64,000 nucleotides of DNA from an uncultured Clostridia bacterium (GTDB lineage Bacteria > Bacillota > Clostridia > Lachnospirales > CAG-274). Position 1 is the stretch's first letter; each line of letters starts with the position of its first letter. A model generated the notes under the pieces. The model searched no databases. It was not told the origin of the DNA and saw only the letters and a program-made list of their open reading frames with translations. Below are positions 111-62,330 of the stretch, piece after piece. The DNA is taken from NCBI GenBank assembly GCA_947630475.1, contig CANRHR010000003.1, forward strand, positions 62,001 to 126,000. Reading direction: 5' to 3'. The position numbers and the translations under genes are program-made.

Positions 111-297
111 TCAGACTGTCAAAAAACCCTGCTTTGAACAAGTAACTTAAAGCGTCGCAGACTTATAATCCGCAGGCGAAATTCACTTGCGCCGAGGAAA
201 ACAGCGAGTTTCAAGGGATTTTTAATCCCGATGGAATGAGCTGTTTATACATCTGTTTTTTTCTCGAAAAAGTCCAAATGGACTTTTTCGACACTCA
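111..297 (-). repeat. L element, copy A (structured interspersed repeat, about 187 bp)
   Basis: This is one of four copies of the same repeat and the only one on the minus strand. Read on the minus strand it has a 12-bp perfect hairpin (TCGAAAAAGTCC/GGACTTTTTCGA), an outer stem AAACAGC/GCTGTTT enclosing GGGATT-AAA-AATCCC, a 19-nt hairpin GGCG...CGCC, then the conserved block TCTGCGACGCTTTAAGT. The outer ends (TTGAGTGTC and GACAGTCTGA) form an imperfect inverted repeat. It contains no convincing ORF. With the R repeat at 345-400 it accounts for most of the gene-free first 450 bases. Confidence 0.85.
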
Positions 298-1861: not shown

Positions 1862-2072
1862 TGCCATAATTAATATTTTTAAACCTTAACAATGACATTG
1901 CCCTATGAATATATTTCCCTCAACAGTAAAATTTTATGCACACAGCTAAAAAAAATATATTCTGTATTTTTTAAGTCTAAATCTGTTGATATACAAATTA
2001 AAAAATTTTTTAAAGTATCACTATTTGATTTTTTATCATAAACTAAAAATAAAAAATAAAGGACTATGTTTT

Positions 2073-2519
2073 ATGAGTTTAAAAGAAGATAATAATTCAG
2101 ACTGTGATGAAAAAATACAAATTATAGTTGAATGCTCTCTTGACAAAGAAGCTGCCACACTTATAAATCAAATAGGAAAAATCAAGCGTTCTATATCCTG
2201 CATCAATGCCTATGTTGTTGAAATAAACAAAAATGACTTGGAAAAACTTAAAAATATTAAATGTCTTAGAGCGCTTTATAACAATACGCACATAACAGCT
2301 CAAATGAATAAAGCGAGAAAAACTGTAAATGCCGATTATGCCCAGCAAAAAGGTTTTAGCGGAAAAAACGTTACAATAGCAATACTTGATACCGGAATTG
2401 CTCCGTTAAATGATTTTGTATATCCAAAAAACAGAATCATTTGCTTTAAGGATTTTATAAACAATAAATCAGAGCCTTATGATGACAACGGGCACGGAAC
2501 CCACCTACGGTATAAATAA
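2073..2519 (+). pseudogene. Truncated subtilisin-like serine protease (S8 family), 5' part only
   Basis: The 148-residue reading frame begins MSLKEDNNSD after an AAAGGAC ribosome binding site. It has a prodomain-like region (about residues 15-75), then the start of an S8 catalytic domain with the aspartate motif AILDTGI (Asp106) and the histidine motif DDNGHGTH (His141). Four residues after the histidine motif the frame ends (LRYK, stop at 2517-2519). The oxyanion asparagine and catalytic serine regions, about two thirds of a normal subtilase, are absent, so the product cannot be a protease. The convergent gene at 2540-3268 is also cut short against the same spot, suggesting a deletion or a bad join near 2505-2540. 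Confidence 0.8.
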
Positions 2520-2539
2520 AAACAGCAAAATATGCCATA

Positions 2540-3268
2540 TCACAAACAGCGCAGATTAATACACCTCTTTTCGTCAAATAAATCATTTGAGCCTGCAAAA
2601 ACAGTATTTATTTTGTCTATTGAAGAATTTTTATAATCCAATTTTCTTCTGATTTTAGAATAGCTTATATATTCATATTTATTATCAGCATTTATAAAAC
2701 CTTTTTTAACGCCATCAAAGCCTGCTGCAACTCCTTTCAAACTTTCATCTGTGCTTTTTGGATATTTTTCTCTTATGCATTTGCAAAGCTTATCCAAATC
2801 TATAAAACCGCTTGCCTTGGCAATAGCCCCAATCATAACCATATTAATTTTTGTCTTAAGCTCTGTCGCTATTTTTAAAGCATCGATAACATAAAGTGTG
2901 CCCGCATACATTTTAATGCTGTCCCTTACCTTTTGAATGTCAGTTTGGCTTGTATTTACTATAACCGAAGTATTTTCATCAACTCCTGCCATAAGCATTT
3001 GCTTATCGGCAAGCCTATCATGAAAAATACAAAGTATATCAGGTTTTTCTATAGGCGAATTTATTTTTATTGGCAAATCATTTTTTGAATATCTTATAAA
3101 GCTTTTAACAGCAGCTCCTATTTTCTCCGATCCGCAGCCCGAAAAACTTGACGCATTAAAGCCAAGATAAAGAGCGCCACATTCTCCTAAAATTTTAGCC
3201 GCCAAATTTGCTCCAAGCCCGCCTATGCTTTCAAGCCTTATTTCAAAAAAATCATTTTTAAACTCCAT
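2540..3268 (-). CDS. 2-oxoacid:acceptor oxidoreductase gamma subunit, 3' end lost
   Basis: The 242-residue product starts at MEFKNDFFEIR after GGAGGG. Its first ~190 residues look like the gamma subunit/domain of pyruvate/2-oxoacid:ferredoxin oxidoreductases (GGLGANLAAKILGE near the N-terminus, then a Rossmann-like body). Such enzymes also need alpha, beta and ferredoxin subunits, none of which is present here. The last residues, FDEKRCINLRCL, look like the start of a 2[4Fe-4S] ferredoxin domain thrown out of frame: dropping one base after CIN would give C-A-V-C-D-M, restoring CxxCxxC. The remainder is missing where it meets the truncated subtilase. The protein is probably non-functional alone. 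Confidence 0.65.
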   Translation of the reverse strand: MEFKNDFFEIRLESIGGLGANLAAKILGECGALYLGFNASSFSGCGSEKIGAAVKSFIRYSKNDLPIKINSPIEKPDILCIFHDRLADKQMLMAGVDENTSVIVNTSQTDIQKVRDSIKMYAGTLYVIDALKIATELKTKINMVMIGAIAKASGFIDLDKLCKCIREKYPKSTDESLKGVAAGFDGVKKGFINADNKYEYISYSKIRRKLDYKNSSIDKINTVFAGSNDLFDEKRCINLRCL

Positions 3269-3389
3269 ATTATCCCTCCAAAAGGTTTTGCCGTTATTAT
3301 TTCTCAATAAATATAAAATATGCCTTATTTATAAAAATAATTTAACATAACCTTTACAAAATATAATTTAATATGGTAAATTAATATCA

Positions 3390-3421
3390 TATGAAAAAAG
3401 AATATTTAACTTTTTTCATAA
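3390..3421. promoter_or_regulatory. Perfect 11-bp inverted repeat upstream of the amino-acid ABC operon (possible operator)
   Basis: The arms TATGAAAAAAG and CTTTTTTCATA are separated by about nine bases and lie 30-60 bp upstream of the binding-protein start codon. A weak TTTACA-like -35 sits about 40 bp further upstream. The position suits an operator or a leader hairpin. No regulator can be named from sequence alone. Confidence 0.4.
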
Positions 3422-3450
3422 ATTATTAAATTTTATCGGAGGCAAAAATT

Positions 3451-4284
3451 ATGAAAAAATTATTAGCATTTGCAGTTTCGGCGATCATGCTTTTAAGCTT
3501 TGCCGGCTGCTCAAACAGCGCAGAAAAATCTAATAAAACTGAAGCCCAAACTCAGACGGCAGCACCAGAAACCGAAAGCAATGAAAACAACAAAACGACT
3601 GATAAAATTATAATCGGTCTTGATGAAAACTTTCCGCCAATGGGCTTTAGAGATGAGAACAACGAAATTACAGGCTTTGATGTTGATCTTGCAAAGGCAG
3701 CGGCTGAAAAAATGGGCGTTGAGGCTGAATTTCAGCCTATCAACTGGTCAAGCAAAGAACTTGAATTGGATTCCGGAAAAGTTGACCTTCTTTGGAATGG
3801 CCTTACAATAACCGATGAGCGAAGAGAAAATATGGAATTTACAAATCCTTATCTTGCCAATAAGCAGGTTATTATGGTTAAAAACGAATCCGAAATAACT
3901 TCAAAAGCAGATCTTGCAGGTAAAAATATAGGTATTCAAAAAGAGTCTTCAGCCGTTGATGCCGTAAATGCCGATCCTATAGCTTCTGAACTCAATTTAA
4001 ATGAATACGATGATAATATTTTGGCATTTACCGATCTCGAAATCGGAAGAGTTGACGCCGTTGTTGTTGATGAAATAGTAGCAAGATATTATATCAGCAC
4101 AAATGATACAGATTTTAAGCTGCTTGACGAAGACTTCGGCGATGAAGTATACGGCGTTGCGGCAAAGAAAGGAAACACTGAGCTTATAAACAAGCTTCAG
4201 GCTGCCCTTGACGAAATTAAAGATGACGGAACAGCCGCTGAAATTTCTCAAAAATGGTTTGGCGAAGATATTTATCTTCATTAA
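3451..4284 (+). CDS. Polar amino-acid ABC transporter, substrate-binding lipoprotein
   Basis: The 277-residue protein starts after GGAGG and has a lipoprotein signal peptide with lipobox LSFAGC (Cys20), then a Thr/Glu-rich linker and a family 3 solute-binding fold (GLDENFPPMGFRDENNEITGFDVDLAKAAAEKMG). It captures an amino acid outside the membrane and delivers it to the permease at 4376-5023, with energy from the ATPase at 5046-5789; the three genes form a complete operon. The sequence pattern resembles cystine/polar amino-acid binders, but the ligand cannot be fixed from sequence. It is the first operon gene and is probably expressed most, given the hairpin after it. Confidence 0.9.
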   Translation: MKKLLAFAVSAIMLLSFAGCSNSAEKSNKTEAQTQTAAPETESNENNKTTDKIIIGLDENFPPMGFRDENNEITGFDVDLAKAAAEKMGVEAEFQPINWSSKELELDSGKVDLLWNGLTITDERRENMEFTNPYLANKQVIMVKNESEITSKADLAGKNIGIQKESSAVDAVNADPIASELNLNEYDDNILAFTDLEIGRVDAVVVDEIVARYYISTNDTDFKLLDEDFGDEVYGVAAKKGNTELINKLQAALDEIKDDGTAAEISQKWFGEDIYLH

Positions 4285-5799: not shown

Positions 5800-5830
5800 G
5801 TTTATTGACAGTCTGAAACTGTCAATAAAC
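5800..5830. terminator. Perfect 13-bp palindromic hairpin after the amino-acid ABC operon
   Basis: The arms GTTTATTGACAGT and ACTGTCAATAAAC are separated by CTGAA. The hairpin lies between the ABC operon and the convergent metallo-hydrolase gene and could terminate both. There is no strong T run. Its arms match the terminal sequence of the L elements (TTTATTGACAGTCTGA), so it may be a solo end or a remnant of that family. Confidence 0.55.
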
Positions 5831-11883: not shown

Positions 11884-11891
11884 AATAAATA

Positions 11892-11948
11892 TTGACAGTC
11901 TGCCCACCGCCTAAAAGGTGGTGGGACTTACTTAGTCGGTTAAAATAA
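11892..11948 (+). repeat. R element tail with strong hairpin between lonB and polC, copy R2
   Basis: It begins with ATTGACAGTCTG, the same bases that end the L elements, then forms a 9-bp stem CCCACCGCC/GGTGGTGGG (11903-11911, 11917-11925, one G-T pair, loop TAAAA), then carries the R tail GGACTTACTTAGTCGGTTAAAATAA. The hairpin probably serves as a terminator for both convergent genes. The end of the repeat overlaps the last codons of polC. Confidence 0.6.
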
Positions 11949-24351: not shown

Positions 24352-24579
24352 GCCATCCAAAAAGGATGGCTCTGAGTGTCGAAAAAGTCCAAGCGGACTT
24401 TTTCGAGAGAAAACAGATGTATAAACAGCTCATTCCATCGGGATTAAAAATCCCTTGAAACTCGCTGTTTTCCTCGGCGCAAGTGAATTTCGCCTGCGGA
24501 TTATAGGTCTGCGACGCTTTAAGTTACTTGTTCAAAGTAGGGGTTTGACAGTCCGTACCAACCTAAAAAGGATGGCTCT
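24352..24579 (+). repeat. Hairpin direct repeats flanking L copy B
   Basis: On the left, GCCATCC/GGATGGC forms a perfect hairpin with loop AAAAA (24352-24370), immediately followed by the L element. On the right, at 24558-24579, the same segment recurs as an imperfect hairpin. The exact shared core is 15 bp (AAAAAGGATGGCTCT, 24359-24373 and 24565-24579). The right copy continues with TAATATCGAAA, which resembles the L start GAGTGTCGAAA, so it may be the beginning of a second, decayed L copy. Confidence 0.7.
24371..24555 (+). repeat. L element, copy B (about 185 bp)
   Basis: It has the same domains as copy A in the plus orientation: 5' end TCTGAGTGTC, 12-bp hairpin with loop AAGC, AAACAGC/GCTGTTT stem enclosing GGGATT-AAA-AATCCC, 19-nt hairpin GGCG...CGCC, conserved TCTGCGACGCTTTAAGT and 3' end TTTGACAGTCCG. 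No protein is encoded. It lies between the divergently placed ends of tmk (5' side) and a hybrid kinase (3' side). Confidence 0.85.
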
Positions 24580-29919: not shown

Positions 29920-30040
29920 ATAAAGATTACAAACTGTCAACAAAGCTCTTTTTGCCGAAATTTACAGTTGAGATTTGTTTCCGATAAGAAAAATGCAGCA
30001 AAATTATTTCAATCGGATTTTTCGACAGTATAAGATTATT
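29920..30040. repeat. Short decayed inverted-repeat element with flanking near-duplications
   Basis: ACTGTC (29933-29938) and GACAGT (30024-30029) face each other, and the right end GGATTTTTCGACAGT resembles one end of the L elements. TATAAAGATTA on the left and TATAAGATTA on the right resemble a target duplication with one indel. The rest of the gap 29880-30261 is AT-rich and otherwise contains only the promoter of the ABC-F gene. Confidence 0.5.
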
Positions 30041-30237: not shown

Positions 30238-30261
30238 ATGTGTTTGAAAGGAGAAATTAAA

Positions 30262-32157
30262 ATGATACTTTCATGCAGCGGCATAACAAAAGCATTTAAC
30301 GCAGAGCCTGTTATAAACGATATTTCCTTTGGGATAGAAAAAAAAGAAAAGGCGGCGGTTATCGGCGTAAACGGAGCCGGAAAATCAACTCTTTTTAAAA
30401 TAATTGCAGGTGAAATAACTCCGGAAAGCGGTGAGATAACAATTGCCAAAAATATAAAAATAGGCTATTTTTCTCAAAATCTTGAGATTGACTCTCAAAA
30501 ATCAATCTATGACGAATTATTATCTGTATTTGAGCCTATAATAAAGCTTGAAAACGAGATAAGAAATCTTGAAGTTGAAATGTCGGCTCTTAAAGGACAG
30601 GAGCTGGACAACGCAATGAAAAAATATACAATCCTGTCATCCGATTTGGAAGATAAAAACGCATACGAATATAAAAGCCGATTAAAAGCAGTTATAAAAG
30701 GCTTAGGTTTTTGCGAAGAGGAATCTCAAAAATCCATAGATAATCTTTCCGGCGGTGAAAAAACAAGGGTTGCTTTAGGCAAACTTCTGCTGTCAAATCC
30801 TGATATACTTCTGCTTGATGAACCTACAAATCATCTTGATATAGAATCAATAAATTGGCTTGAAGACTTTTTAAGGGCATACAAGGGAAGTGTTTTAATT
30901 ATCTCTCATGACCGTTATTTTCTCGATAAAATAGTAACAAAAATTATGGAAATAGAAAATAAAAAGCTTTTTATTTATAACGGAAACTACACATATTATT
31001 ACAACAAAAAGCAAAAGGACAGAGAGGTTCAGCTTAAGCATTATATTTCTCAGCAAAAAGAAATAGCAAAACAGCAGGAATCTATACAAAAGCTTCGTTC
31101 GTTTAACAGGGAAAAATCTATTAAAAGAGCCGAAAGCAAAGAAAAACAACTAAAAAAAATCATTCTTGAAGATAAACCCGAAAATCTTCCGGATTCGATG
31201 CGTTTAGCTCTTAAGCCTAAGTTTGAAAGCGGAAACGATGTATTAAGCGTAAAAGAGCTTGCAAAAAGCTTTGACGGAAATATTCTTTTTAAAAACGTTT
31301 CGTTTGAGATAAAAAAAGGAGAGAAAATAGCGCTTATAGGCCCTAACGGAACGGGCAAAACAACTATTTTTAAAATAATACTCGGCTCTCTCAGCCAAGA
31401 CAGCGGCAGCATAAAGCTTGGAACCGGGGTTAGCGTCGGATACTATGACCAAGAGCACGCCTGTCTTGATAACGATAAAACTATATTTGATGAAATCTCC
31501 GATTCATTTCCAAGCCTTACAACACTCGAGATAAGAAATGCTCTTGCCGCATTTGTTTTTACAAGTGATGATGTTTTTAAGAGCATATCGGCATTAAGCG
31601 GAGGTGAAAAAGGACGAGTTGCTCTTGCAAAAATTATGCTTTCAAAAGCTAATTTTCTGATTTTGGACGAGCCTACAAATCATCTTGATATAAATTCAAA
31701 AGAAATATTGGAGTCTGCTCTTAGAAATTATGAGGGAACCTGCCTTTATATATCTCATGATCGTTATTTTATAAACAATACCGCAAATAAAATAATTGAG
31801 CTTACAAACAATGGCTGTGTACTTTATTTAGGAAATTACGATTATTATACAGAAAAAAAACAGCTTGAGCTGCAAACAGAACCCAATATTGCAGCCAAGC
31901 AGGAAACTCAATCAAAAATAGACAGAAAAAAGCAAAAACAAGAGCAGTCTGAGCAAAGAAAAAGAAAATCAAAAATAGAAAAAACAGAAAATAAAATTAT
32001 TGAATGTGAAGAAAAAATAGAGGCTTTAAACAACGAGCTTTTAAAAGAAGAAATTTATACAAGCCCAATTCTTTCGAAACAATATTTTGATGAAAAAACA
32101 GCTCTTGAAGAAGCTCTTCTTTTGTTATACGAAAAATGGGAAGAGCTTAACGGCTAG
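30262..32157 (+). CDS. ABC-F family ribosome-associated ATPase
   Basis: A 631-residue soluble protein with two ABC ATPase domains and no membrane segments. The first has GVNGAGKST, LSGGEKTRVALG and DEPTNHLD; the second has GPNGTGKTT, LSGGEKGRVALA and DEPTNHLD. A charged linker (about 245-300) and a lysine/glutamate-rich coiled C-terminus (about 535-610) follow. ABC-F proteins act on the ribosomal E site as translation factors or give antibiotic protection; the long C-terminal coiled coil resembles the Uup/YdiF type. ATG 30262 follows AAAGGAG. The stop codon lies inside a palindrome duplicated on either side of L copy C. Confidence 0.92.
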   Translation: MILSCSGITKAFNAEPVINDISFGIEKKEKAAVIGVNGAGKSTLFKIIAGEITPESGEITIAKNIKIGYFSQNLEIDSQKSIYDELLSVFEPIIKLENEIRNLEVEMSALKGQELDNAMKKYTILSSDLEDKNAYEYKSRLKAVIKGLGFCEEESQKSIDNLSGGEKTRVALGKLLLSNPDILLLDEPTNHLDIESINWLEDFLRAYKGSVLIISHDRYFLDKIVTKIMEIENKKLFIYNGNYTYYYNKKQKDREVQLKHYISQQKEIAKQQESIQKLRSFNREKSIKRAESKEKQLKKIILEDKPENLPDSMRLALKPKFESGNDVLSVKELAKSFDGNILFKNVSFEIKKGEKIALIGPNGTGKTTIFKIILGSLSQDSGSIKLGTGVSVGYYDQEHACLDNDKTIFDEISDSFPSLTTLEIRNALAAFVFTSDDVFKSISALSGGEKGRVALAKIMLSKANFLILDEPTNHLDINSKEILESALRNYEGTCLYISHDRYFINNTANKIIELTNNGCVLYLGNYDYYTEKKQLELQTEPNIAAKQETQSKIDRKKQKQEQSEQRKRKSKIEKTENKIIECEEKIEALNNELLKEEIYTSPILSKQYFDEKTALEEALLLLYEKWEELNG

Positions 32158-32168
32158 CCGTTAAGCTC
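32143..32168 (+). repeat. 26-bp perfect palindrome at the end of the ABC-F gene, left of L copy C
   Basis: The palindrome spans the last four codons and the TAG stop of the ABC-F gene and abuts L copy C. Its first 22 bp recur exactly at 32352-32373 on the other side of L, where the hairpin is followed by a T run. The right copy looks like the original terminator and the left one like a duplication made when L inserted. Confidence 0.8.
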
Positions 32169-32352
32169 TGAGTATCGAAAAAGTCCAAGTGGACTTTTTC
32201 GAGAGGAAACAGAAGTATAAAAGGTTCGTTCCATCGGGATTAAAAATCCCTTGAAACTCACCTTTTTCCTCGGACAGGCAAAGCTCGTCCTGCGGATTTT
32301 AGTCTGCGACGCTTTAAGTTACTTGGTTAAAATAAGGTTTATTGACAGTCTG
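32167..32352 (+). repeat. L element, copy C (about 186 bp)
   Basis: The 5' end is TCTGAGTATC and the 3' end TTTATTGACAGTCTG. The first hairpin is identical to copies A and B except in the loop. The outer stem is AAAAGGT/ACCTTTT in place of AAACAGC/GCTGTTT: three paired changes that keep the helix. The 19-nt hairpin reads GGAC...GTCC instead of GGCG...CGCC, again with paired changes. The block TCTGCGACGCTTTAAGT is unchanged. It separates the ABC-F gene from its apparent terminator. Confidence 0.87.
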
Positions 32353-32382
32353 AGCTTAACGGCTAGCCGTTAAACTCTTTTT
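32352..32382 (+). terminator. Intrinsic terminator (right copy of the palindrome)
   Basis: A hairpin with arms GAGCTTAACGG/CCGTTAAACTC (one mismatch) is followed by TTTTT. It most likely terminated the ABC-F transcript before L copy C was inserted. It also overlaps the 3' edge of the convergent spoIVB gene. Confidence 0.7.
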
Positions 32383-32384
32383 AT

Positions 32385-33695
32385 TTATTGCAAAATATTG
32401 TTTTCCTGCTTTATCATATTTTCTATAAATATTGCATAGCCCTTGTCAGGCTCGTTTACAAAAACATGGGTCACAGCTCCTATAAGCTTTCCATCCTGAA
32501 GAATAGGACTGCCACTCATGCCTTGTACAATTCCATTGGTTTTATTTAAAAGCTCTTTATCCGTTATTTTTATAACCATGGATTTTGAAGAATTTACGCT
32601 GTATCTGTTTATATTTATAATTTCGGCGCTATATCTTTTGCTTTCATTTCCGTCAACGCATGATATTATCTCTGCGCTTCCCTCTCTAACCTGAGAGCTT
32701 AACGCTATAGGAACGGCAGCCGAATTTAAATCGGATGTATCTTTTATTTTTCCGTATATTCCAAAACGAGTATTTGAGTAAACCTCTCCAATTATTTTAT
32801 TTTTGTCTATATTGCCTAAAAGCTCTCCCGGGCTTCCTTTCTCTCCCTTTTTTATGTCATAGATTTCTGAATTCATTATTTTGCCGTTTTTTACACTCAT
32901 AAGCTCCGCCGTATCCACATCTGTAATTCCATGTCCCAATGCTCCGAAGGTAAGAGTTTTGGGGTTATAATATGTTAATGTTCCTACTCCCTGAGTGCTG
33001 TCCCTTACCCACACTCCTATTTTGTTTTCTCCATCGCTTACTTTAACAACAGGCACTTTTTTTTCTGATATTTGGTTATCTCTTTTTATTGTCAGCTTAA
33101 TAAACGCAGCTCTACATTCATTTATCGCCATTATAAGATCTTCTTTATTCTCTGTAATTTTTTCATCCGCCTTTAATATAAGATCGCCTGCTTTCAAAAT
33201 ATTTTCACTGCTGTCTATGTTTTTACCGTCTGCGTTCTTAACTGTGCCTGTTCCCAAAACCATAATGCCGTCTGTATTTATTCTTACACCTATAGTCTTT
33301 CCGCATGGCACTGCCTTTATATCCGGCAAAACAGATAAATTTACCTCTTTAACAGGTATTCCCAAAAACCTAAGACTTATTTTAGCCGTTCCCTCCTGCT
33401 GTGCCGTAAGAGAAAATGGCTTTATCAAATTTATTTTATCATAATTTCCGATGCGCTTATTATTCAAATTTATACACGCTTTATCGGCTGAAAGTATAAC
33501 TGCCTGAGCCGGAATATTAAATTCAAACCTTTCTTCTTTTCCGGCTATAATATTTATCTCGCCCGGAAGCATTAAAAGCTTTAACAAATTTAATATTAAA
33601 ATTAACGCAAATGAAAATAATATAATATAAAACCGAAAATTTTTTTTGGGTAAAATCAAATAAGCTGAAAACAACAGCTTTAATCTTTTAAACAT
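32385..33695 (-). CDS. spoIVB: SpoIVB peptidase (sporulation signalling serine protease)
   Basis: A 436-residue protein with one N-terminal membrane segment, a PDZ-like region (about 150-215) and an S55 peptidase domain with the histidine motif ALGHGITDVDT and the serine motif GIVQGMSGSPILQDGKLIGAVTHV. In Bacillus SpoIVB is made in the forespore under sigma-G, secreted into the intermembrane space, and cleaves SpoIVFA to trigger pro-sigma-K processing. ATG 33695 is nine bases from GGAAGTG; a GTG four codons earlier touches that site. SpoIIM or Spo0A genes that may neighbour it are absent. The gene is a strong marker of endospore formation. Confidence 0.93.
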   Translation of the reverse strand: MFKRLKLLFSAYLILPKKNFRFYIILFSFALILILNLLKLLMLPGEINIIAGKEERFEFNIPAQAVILSADKACINLNNKRIGNYDKINLIKPFSLTAQQEGTAKISLRFLGIPVKEVNLSVLPDIKAVPCGKTIGVRINTDGIMVLGTGTVKNADGKNIDSSENILKAGDLILKADEKITENKEDLIMAINECRAAFIKLTIKRDNQISEKKVPVVKVSDGENKIGVWVRDSTQGVGTLTYYNPKTLTFGALGHGITDVDTAELMSVKNGKIMNSEIYDIKKGEKGSPGELLGNIDKNKIIGEVYSNTRFGIYGKIKDTSDLNSAAVPIALSSQVREGSAEIISCVDGNESKRYSAEIININRYSVNSSKSMVIKITDKELLNKTNGIVQGMSGSPILQDGKLIGAVTHVFVNEPDKGYAIFIENMIKQENNILQ

Positions 33696-33879
33696 TTTAA
33701 TTTTCACTTCCTTTTATCAAATAAAAAGACTAACATTAATTTGCCCTATGCCTAAAAAAATTAATCAGCAATTTATTTACAAAATTTTTGAGTATATGAG
33801 TTTGATTTGCAAAAGCCGCAAAAAAGAATTGATTTAAAATATAATATGGAGTAAAATTAAGTATAAGGATAATAAGTTT

Positions 33880-43861: not shown

Positions 43862-44080
43862 TATATGACCTCCTGTTACTTGCAAAATATTTATTTTATA
43901 TTCTATCATACGAATTGTTAATTTTCAAACCTTTGTTTCTCTTTATGTATAATATTATTATCTCAACACATAATATTATTGAGGCAGTTATAAAAAATTA
44001 ATATTTTCTCTTGAAATTAACTTGACTTTTTATTATAATTATATCAAAAGAAAGCTTAAATTTTAATAACTGCTTAATAT

Positions 44081-44271
44081 TTCCTGAAATGTTCGTTTAC
44101 CTTTGTTTTTGAACCTACATTACTTGCATGGGATGCTTATATTCTAAAGAATATGTCAGGCCCCAATCTAATTCCCTTTGGGCAGGGGAAGACAGAGTTC
44201 TTTTATGCGGCGACCCACCTATCTTTTGATAGGCGTCAAGAAAAGGGACCGGCATTTCGGGTTTTTATTTT
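44081..44271 (+). ncRNA. ssrS: 6S RNA (RNA polymerase regulator)
   Basis: The terminal stem CCTGAAATG (44083-44091) and CATTTCGGG (44253-44261, one G-U pair) matches the 6S closing stem, including the conserved ATGTTCG after the 5' arm and GGCAT before the 3' arm; a T run follows. Inside are GAACCTACAT, ATTCT/AGAAT pairs, the GGCCCC/GGGGAAG region and GGCGACCCACCT, consistent with a long imperfect hairpin with a central bubble and total length of about 185 nt. 6S RNA binds sigma-A RNA polymerase by mimicking open promoter DNA in stationary phase. No ORF covers it. It converges on hydE, whose stop codon lies at its terminator. Confidence 0.82.
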
Positions 44272-62161: not shown

Positions 62162-62330
62162 TCTGAATGTCTAAAAAGTCCATTTGGACTTTTTAGAGGG
62201 GAAAACATAGGTATAAACAGTTCATTCCATCGGGGCTAAAAGCCCCTTGAAACTTGCTGCTTTCCTCGGCGGAAATGAATTCCGCCTGTGGATCAAAAAT
62301 CTGCGACGCTTTAAGTCAGTTAAACCAACA
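62162..62330 (+). repeat. L element, copy D (most diverged)
   Basis: Compared with copies A-C: first hairpin TCTAAAAAGTCC/GGACTTTTTAGA (paired G-C to T-A change), third stem GGGGCT-AAA-AGCCCC (two paired changes), and the 19-nt hairpin GGCGGAA/TTCCGCC now perfect over seven pairs. The block TCTGCGACGCTTTAAGT is intact, but the 3' TTGACAGTCTG end is missing. The copy has decayed in sequence while keeping its fold. Confidence 0.85.

Follow-up and report, generated by a model that had tools for sequence, protein, structure and literature searches.

Repeat L is most probably a non-autonomous DNA transposon, a family of MITEs which is moved in trans by a DDE transposase of the IS1182 family and whose hairpins are kept palindromic largely at the DNA level. 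Four copies had been recognised in a preliminary description of the window, the whole stretch of 64,000 nucleotides that was analysed, and all four were recovered at the same places and on the same strands as matches to a covariance model. The stems they share and the paired differences named between them are present. Their number, on the other hand, was largely underestimated, as the covariance-model search found at least 82 full-model matches in the 2.18 Mb Clostridia genome to which the window belongs, where BLAST alone found 40 copies. Similarly, a block described as invariant, TCTGCGACGCTTTAAGT, is so in these four copies, whereas elsewhere in the genome GCCTGCGGCGC variants occur. The absence of an open reading frame was borne out by an ORF check: none of more than 53 amino acids overlaps copy B, and the element thus carries no transposase gene of its own. 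The features in the window are the following.

112 to 297, minus strand: copy A, with no clear target-site duplication; model match 148-253 (minus)
24352 to 24373, plus strand: left target-site duplication of copy B, a terminator-type hairpin GCCATCCAAAAAGGATGGC followed by TCT, forming a direct repeat with 24557-24579
24374 to 24555, plus strand: copy B, about 182 bp; model match 24416-24521 (plus)
24379 to 24406, plus strand: hairpin P1 of copy B, TCGAAAAAGTCC/GGACTTTTTCGA, adjoining the left terminal inverted repeat; among the copies its loop is found in either orientation
24416 to 24521, plus strand: inner core of copy B (P2, P3, P5), covariance model R1
24541 to 24555, plus strand: right terminal inverted repeat of copy B, TTTGACAGTCCG
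24557 to 24579, plus strand: right target-site duplication of copy B, diverged
32143 to 32169, plus strand: left target-site duplication of copy C, hairpin GAGCTTAACGGCTAGCCGTTAAGCTCT
32170 to 32351, plus strand: copy C, 182 bp; model match 32212-32316 (plus)
32352 to 32378, plus strand: right target-site duplication of copy C, 26 of 27 positions identical to the left one
62162 to 62330, plus strand: copy D, with a decayed 3' end; model match 62208-62313 (plus)

Copy C sits between the convergent ORFs 30238-32157 (plus) and 32385-33707 (minus), and copy D is flanked by two minus-strand ORFs. Isolated ends were also seen in the window. At 5801-5829, between two convergent ORFs, two element ends stand back to back (TTTATTGACAGTCTGAAACTGTCAATAAA) with no element between them, perhaps the remnant of two abutting insertions. 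A further end resembling the terminal inverted repeat lies at 11888-11902 (plus) with a hairpin (CCCACCGCC...GGTGGTGGG) after it, and another at 29930-29944 (minus) belongs to a strongly decayed element. At positions 93-140 of locus L082 one element copy is directly followed by the P1 hairpin of another in a tandem or nested arrangement.

The terminal inverted repeats (TIRs) of the element are CAGACTGTC/GACAGTCTG. Copies end in TTTATTGACAGTCTG, the genome consensus of the right TIR, which at up to two mismatches occurs 91 times in the genome as compared to 5 times for a control with reversed letters. The start of the element is a degenerate inverted repeat, (C)TGAGTGTCGAA and in some copies CAGACTGTCGAA; the left end of the L copies is likewise degenerate (GAGTGTCG). 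Direct repeats of 17-39 bp surround the copies, consist of whole intrinsic-terminator hairpins and are different at each site. Such a flanking repeat was found at 58 of 143 elements and at 4 of 689 control positions, many element copies having no recognisable duplication. When the two flanks were rejoined by a script to yield the empty site, 55 of 63 sites formed hairpins that exceeded the 99th percentile of shuffles; in most cases a run of A precedes and a run of T follows the hairpin, as in intrinsic terminators. Gene pairs around the elements are convergent in 37 and divergent in 12 cases. The orientation of the element is moderately biased with respect to the terminator T-run (35 to 15, p 0.007) and to genes (43 to 26, p 0.05), biases too moderate for a strict orientation rule. 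That the length of the duplication is set by the length of the hairpin was considered and dropped, the correlation being only weak (rho 0.27). In both TIRs of the element, as in those of IS1182, an outward-facing TTGACA is found, a -35 promoter hexamer, and insertions could therefore drive neighbouring genes.

A candidate for the helper was found at locus L122, an IS of 1.5 kb with the ends CAGTCTGTC...GACAGACTG, which encodes a protein of 475 amino acids belonging to the IS1182 family of transposases (NF033551, E 1e-124, above the cut-off). On the reverse strand of this locus (1872-3700) one hairpin is present three times in identical form, with a 240-bp element between the first two and the IS1182 copy between the last two; element and IS share their target, which indicates that a duplicated hairpin can be used again. 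Other IS1182 copies across the bacterial family have the same ends, abut hairpins and carry a subterminal hairpin of the AAAAAAGTCC type which resembles P1 in the element. The complete genome of Chakrabartyella piscis BP5G contains 11 intact IS1182 transposases without stop codons together with 26 element copies, and all five ISs read in it have CAGACTGTC/GACAGTCTG ends and exact hairpin duplications. Transposase and elements also occur together in genomes G003, G005 and G021, while no IS1182 transposase was detected in the window's own assembly of 48 contigs. An IS1202-type element was considered as well and was dropped in favour of IS1182 once the helper had been found; IS1202-type elements have target duplications of 24-29 bp. 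Antisense control of the IS1182 transposase by the element was likewise rejected, because no complementarity beyond the TIR was seen, the longest match being the TIR itself in C. piscis and 8-9 nt in G005.

To the ends, duplications and helper found in these genomes a mechanism can be fitted. The transposase would recognise the shared ends CAGACTGTC...GACAGTCTG, and in a joining step that we infer the element would be attached at the base of a DNA hairpin, in most cases the intrinsic terminator of a gene. The whole hairpin would thereby be duplicated on both sides of the element. In this way the terminators of neighbouring genes would be kept, which plausibly allows the element to pile up to at least 80 copies. 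A static palindromic repeat of the REP or BIME type, spread by recombination rather than transposition, would also be intergenic, rich in hairpins and high in copy number, and the recurrence of hairpins as cassettes would suit it. It is nevertheless very unlikely, since transposition is needed to explain flanking duplications that vary between sites and TIRs that the element has in common with an IS.

The preliminary description had left two readings open, a structured non-coding RNA on a non-autonomous mobile element or RNA-only copies of a guide RNA of the HEARO-like kind. The mobile element with conserved stems is supported by the TIRs and by hairpin target duplications which match IS1182. 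The guide RNA of a TnpB, IscB or IsrB system shares with the repeat little else than a repeated, structured, intergenic element without an ORF and is extremely improbable. In the comparison with Rfam, HEARO included, which the preliminary description had proposed, copy B gave no match even at E<=10, and the cores of 18 related loci gave none at the gathering score. The TnpB-type domain PF07282 is absent from the genome of the window, the control search of other genomes being positive. IS200/IS605-type elements are not known to have TIRs with long hairpin target duplications, both of which are present here along with the IS1182 helper.

The consensus structure of the element comprises the hairpins P1, P2a-c, P3, P5 and P6, and the pairing is strongly supported. 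Across 56 copies 94% of the 46 proposed pairs are standard, and pairing falls to about 53% when the partner is slid by one base (37-54% over all control slides). Twenty of the 46 pairs have changed on both sides as compared to 10.7 in column shuffles, so that covariation exceeds chance. A structure model of 105 positions built from a single subfamily matches other, divergent subfamilies over its full length and reaches into another bacterial family. Across subfamilies both sides have changed in 25 of 29 pairs, as counted on an alignment that was fitted to the structure. With a tree-based null the wide alignment yielded eight significantly covarying column pairs, six of them structural; a tree-based test resembling R-scape on the MAFFT alignment A2 of close copies, which has low power, yielded none. 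A large insert of several hairpins (GCAACTTTGC...GGTTGCAAACC) recurs within P3 of the core in four loci (L133, L176, L185, L190), where it enlarges this hairpin.

Paired changes of this kind had been taken in the preliminary description as a sign of selection on an RNA structure. Selection on a folded RNA would be expected to leave more G.U intermediates than A.C mismatches and a better fold on one strand than on the other. As a control from the same clade 6S RNA was used, sampled across 30 genomes in the window's own bacterial family; the window itself contains one at 44078-44267 (plus; RF00013, 59.8 bits), its sole Rfam match at gathering level, and a second, weaker 6S-like match lies at C1:127835-128016 of the genome. 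In 6S RNA changes from Watson-Crick pairs to G.U and to A.C stand at 37:5. The element gave 30:37 in 56 close copies and 26:32 in 100 diverse copies, differing from 6S with Fisher p values of about 5e-6 and 8e-6, respectively. Old copies decay neutrally, so that G.U and A.C even out on terminal branches, and it is there that private double transversions fall, such as the change from G-C to T-A reported for copy D. On internal branches, where counts are small, the ratios were 4:6 and 6:10 for the element against 19:3 for 6S. The forward strand folds better in 29 of 30 6S RNAs but in only 20 of 56 element copies, i.e. the two strands of the element fold equally well. Another finding was that 14 of 26 distinct non-palindromic P1 loops also occur as their reverse complement, where 1.2 were expected and six was the maximum in 2000 shuffles. 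Homogenisation of arms together with inversion of loops has been published as the signature of template switching between the arms of inverted repeats (PMC8604942), which makes a DNA-level origin of the paired changes in P1 well supported. None of 65 forms of the P3 loop was inverted; template switching is thus seen for P1 only, and an oriented constraint acts on P3. For P2, P3 and P5 the wobble test agrees with change at the DNA level, a conclusion less firm than for P1. The attribution of the paired mutations to RNA selection accordingly fails against the 6S control. Both arms would instead change together largely at the DNA level, whether by template switching, by the exchange of cassettes of hairpins or by selection acting alike on both strands, and selection of one RNA strand would not be what maintains the palindromes.

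A plain MITE does not explain everything, because the inner core is kept between bacterial families and was not found inside the IS1182 ISs. Within the window's family the element was matched in 32 of 48 genomes, which represent 10 of the 11 genera sampled; genus g7 gave none in its eight genomes. Of 393 genomes drawn from across the class, no more than three matched at E<=1e-6, and one of them (G040) is from another family of the order. This genome was found by BLAST and lacks the last block of the core: its loci L061-L064 hold a variant with P2 and P3 kept and the GTCTGCGACGC block replaced by a different hairpin. A pattern scan of named genomes added many gut Clostridia MAGs and the complete C. 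piscis genome. The core, CCTCG-hairpin-CTGCGGAT-nnn-GTCTGCGACGC, recurs across genera and in C. piscis, its conservation in the named genomes being partly by construction because these were fetched with the pattern CTGCGGAT...GTCTGCGACGC. The same distribution is seen for the inner loop of P2, GTTCC/GAAAC or GTGCC/GACAC around a C.A mismatch.

The core is therefore conserved beyond the needs of a MITE. Probably it would either help mobilisation in trans or be an RNA cargo. That P2, P3 and P5 form a functional, structured non-coding RNA which travels on an IS1182-type MITE and is selected at the RNA level is possible, though on the unlikely side. The reach of the one-subfamily model, the changes on both sides in most pairs, the structural share of the covarying column pairs, the conserved C.A mismatch and unpaired blocks, the single orientation of P3 loops and the absence of the core from IS1182 itself all speak for it. 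It is opposed by the missing preference for G.U, internal branches included, by the equal folding of both strands, by the lack of an Rfam match, and by alignments that were either fitted to the structure (A5, A6) or, as the low-powered A2, free of significant pairs. A speculative and unlikely extension is that the MITE has carried the core into 11 or more genera of gut Clostridia and set it beside the duplicated terminators of dozens of genes, the core being a structured RNA with a function or a nucleic-acid structure that is symmetric between strands; if true, it would give the host or the element a genome-wide regulator of 3' ends.

For the preferred reading, a MITE family with hairpins kept largely at the DNA level, the consequence is that RNA selection does not necessarily follow from paired mutations among the copies of a repeat. 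A 6S control from the same clade, the count of G.U versus A.C and the count of inverted loops can tell RNA selection from DNA-level change, and this concerns any survey in which covariation within repeats is used to call structured RNAs. The mechanism is testable in C. piscis, a cultivated host with a complete genome in which helper and element occur together.

Among known systems the IS1182 ISs are closest. ISCbo5 of Clostridium sits in terminator hairpins (PMC3098183), and IS1272 is a published member of the family which targets them (PMC4923244, PMC5678879). The present element has the same kind of target and shares its ends with the local IS1182 copies but is without a transposase. IS1272 is reported to delete or replace the hairpin, whereas here the whole hairpin is duplicated. 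In the model published for IS1272 (PMC5678879) one branch leads to a duplicated stem-loop. This outcome, which has not been observed for IS1272 itself, is the one shown by the present element, which offers a clean record, in many copies, of hairpin-targeted transposition with duplication of the target hairpin.

An IS1182-related MITE, MITEPye1, is described from Paracoccus yeei (PMC11578231). It is non-autonomous and intergenic, has IS1182-like TIRs and direct repeats and folds into stem-loops, much like the present element; it has 1-3 copies per chromosome as compared to at least 80 here, and in the parts of that description consulted no multi-hairpin core conserved across genera is reported. 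Folded, MITE-like repeats of bacteria such as Correia/NEMIS, CIR, RPE and RU have been reviewed (PMC2229807). They are likewise short, repeated, intergenic and foldable but differ in ends and helper, and the paired changes of the present element, set against these, have been tested with a 6S RNA control and found not to be RNA-like. Homogenisation of quasipalindrome arms and inversion of spacers by template switching (PMC8604942, PMC7202029) resemble the joint change of arms and the inverted loops of hairpin P1; described there for coding or mutator loci, template switching would here act inside a transposon family.
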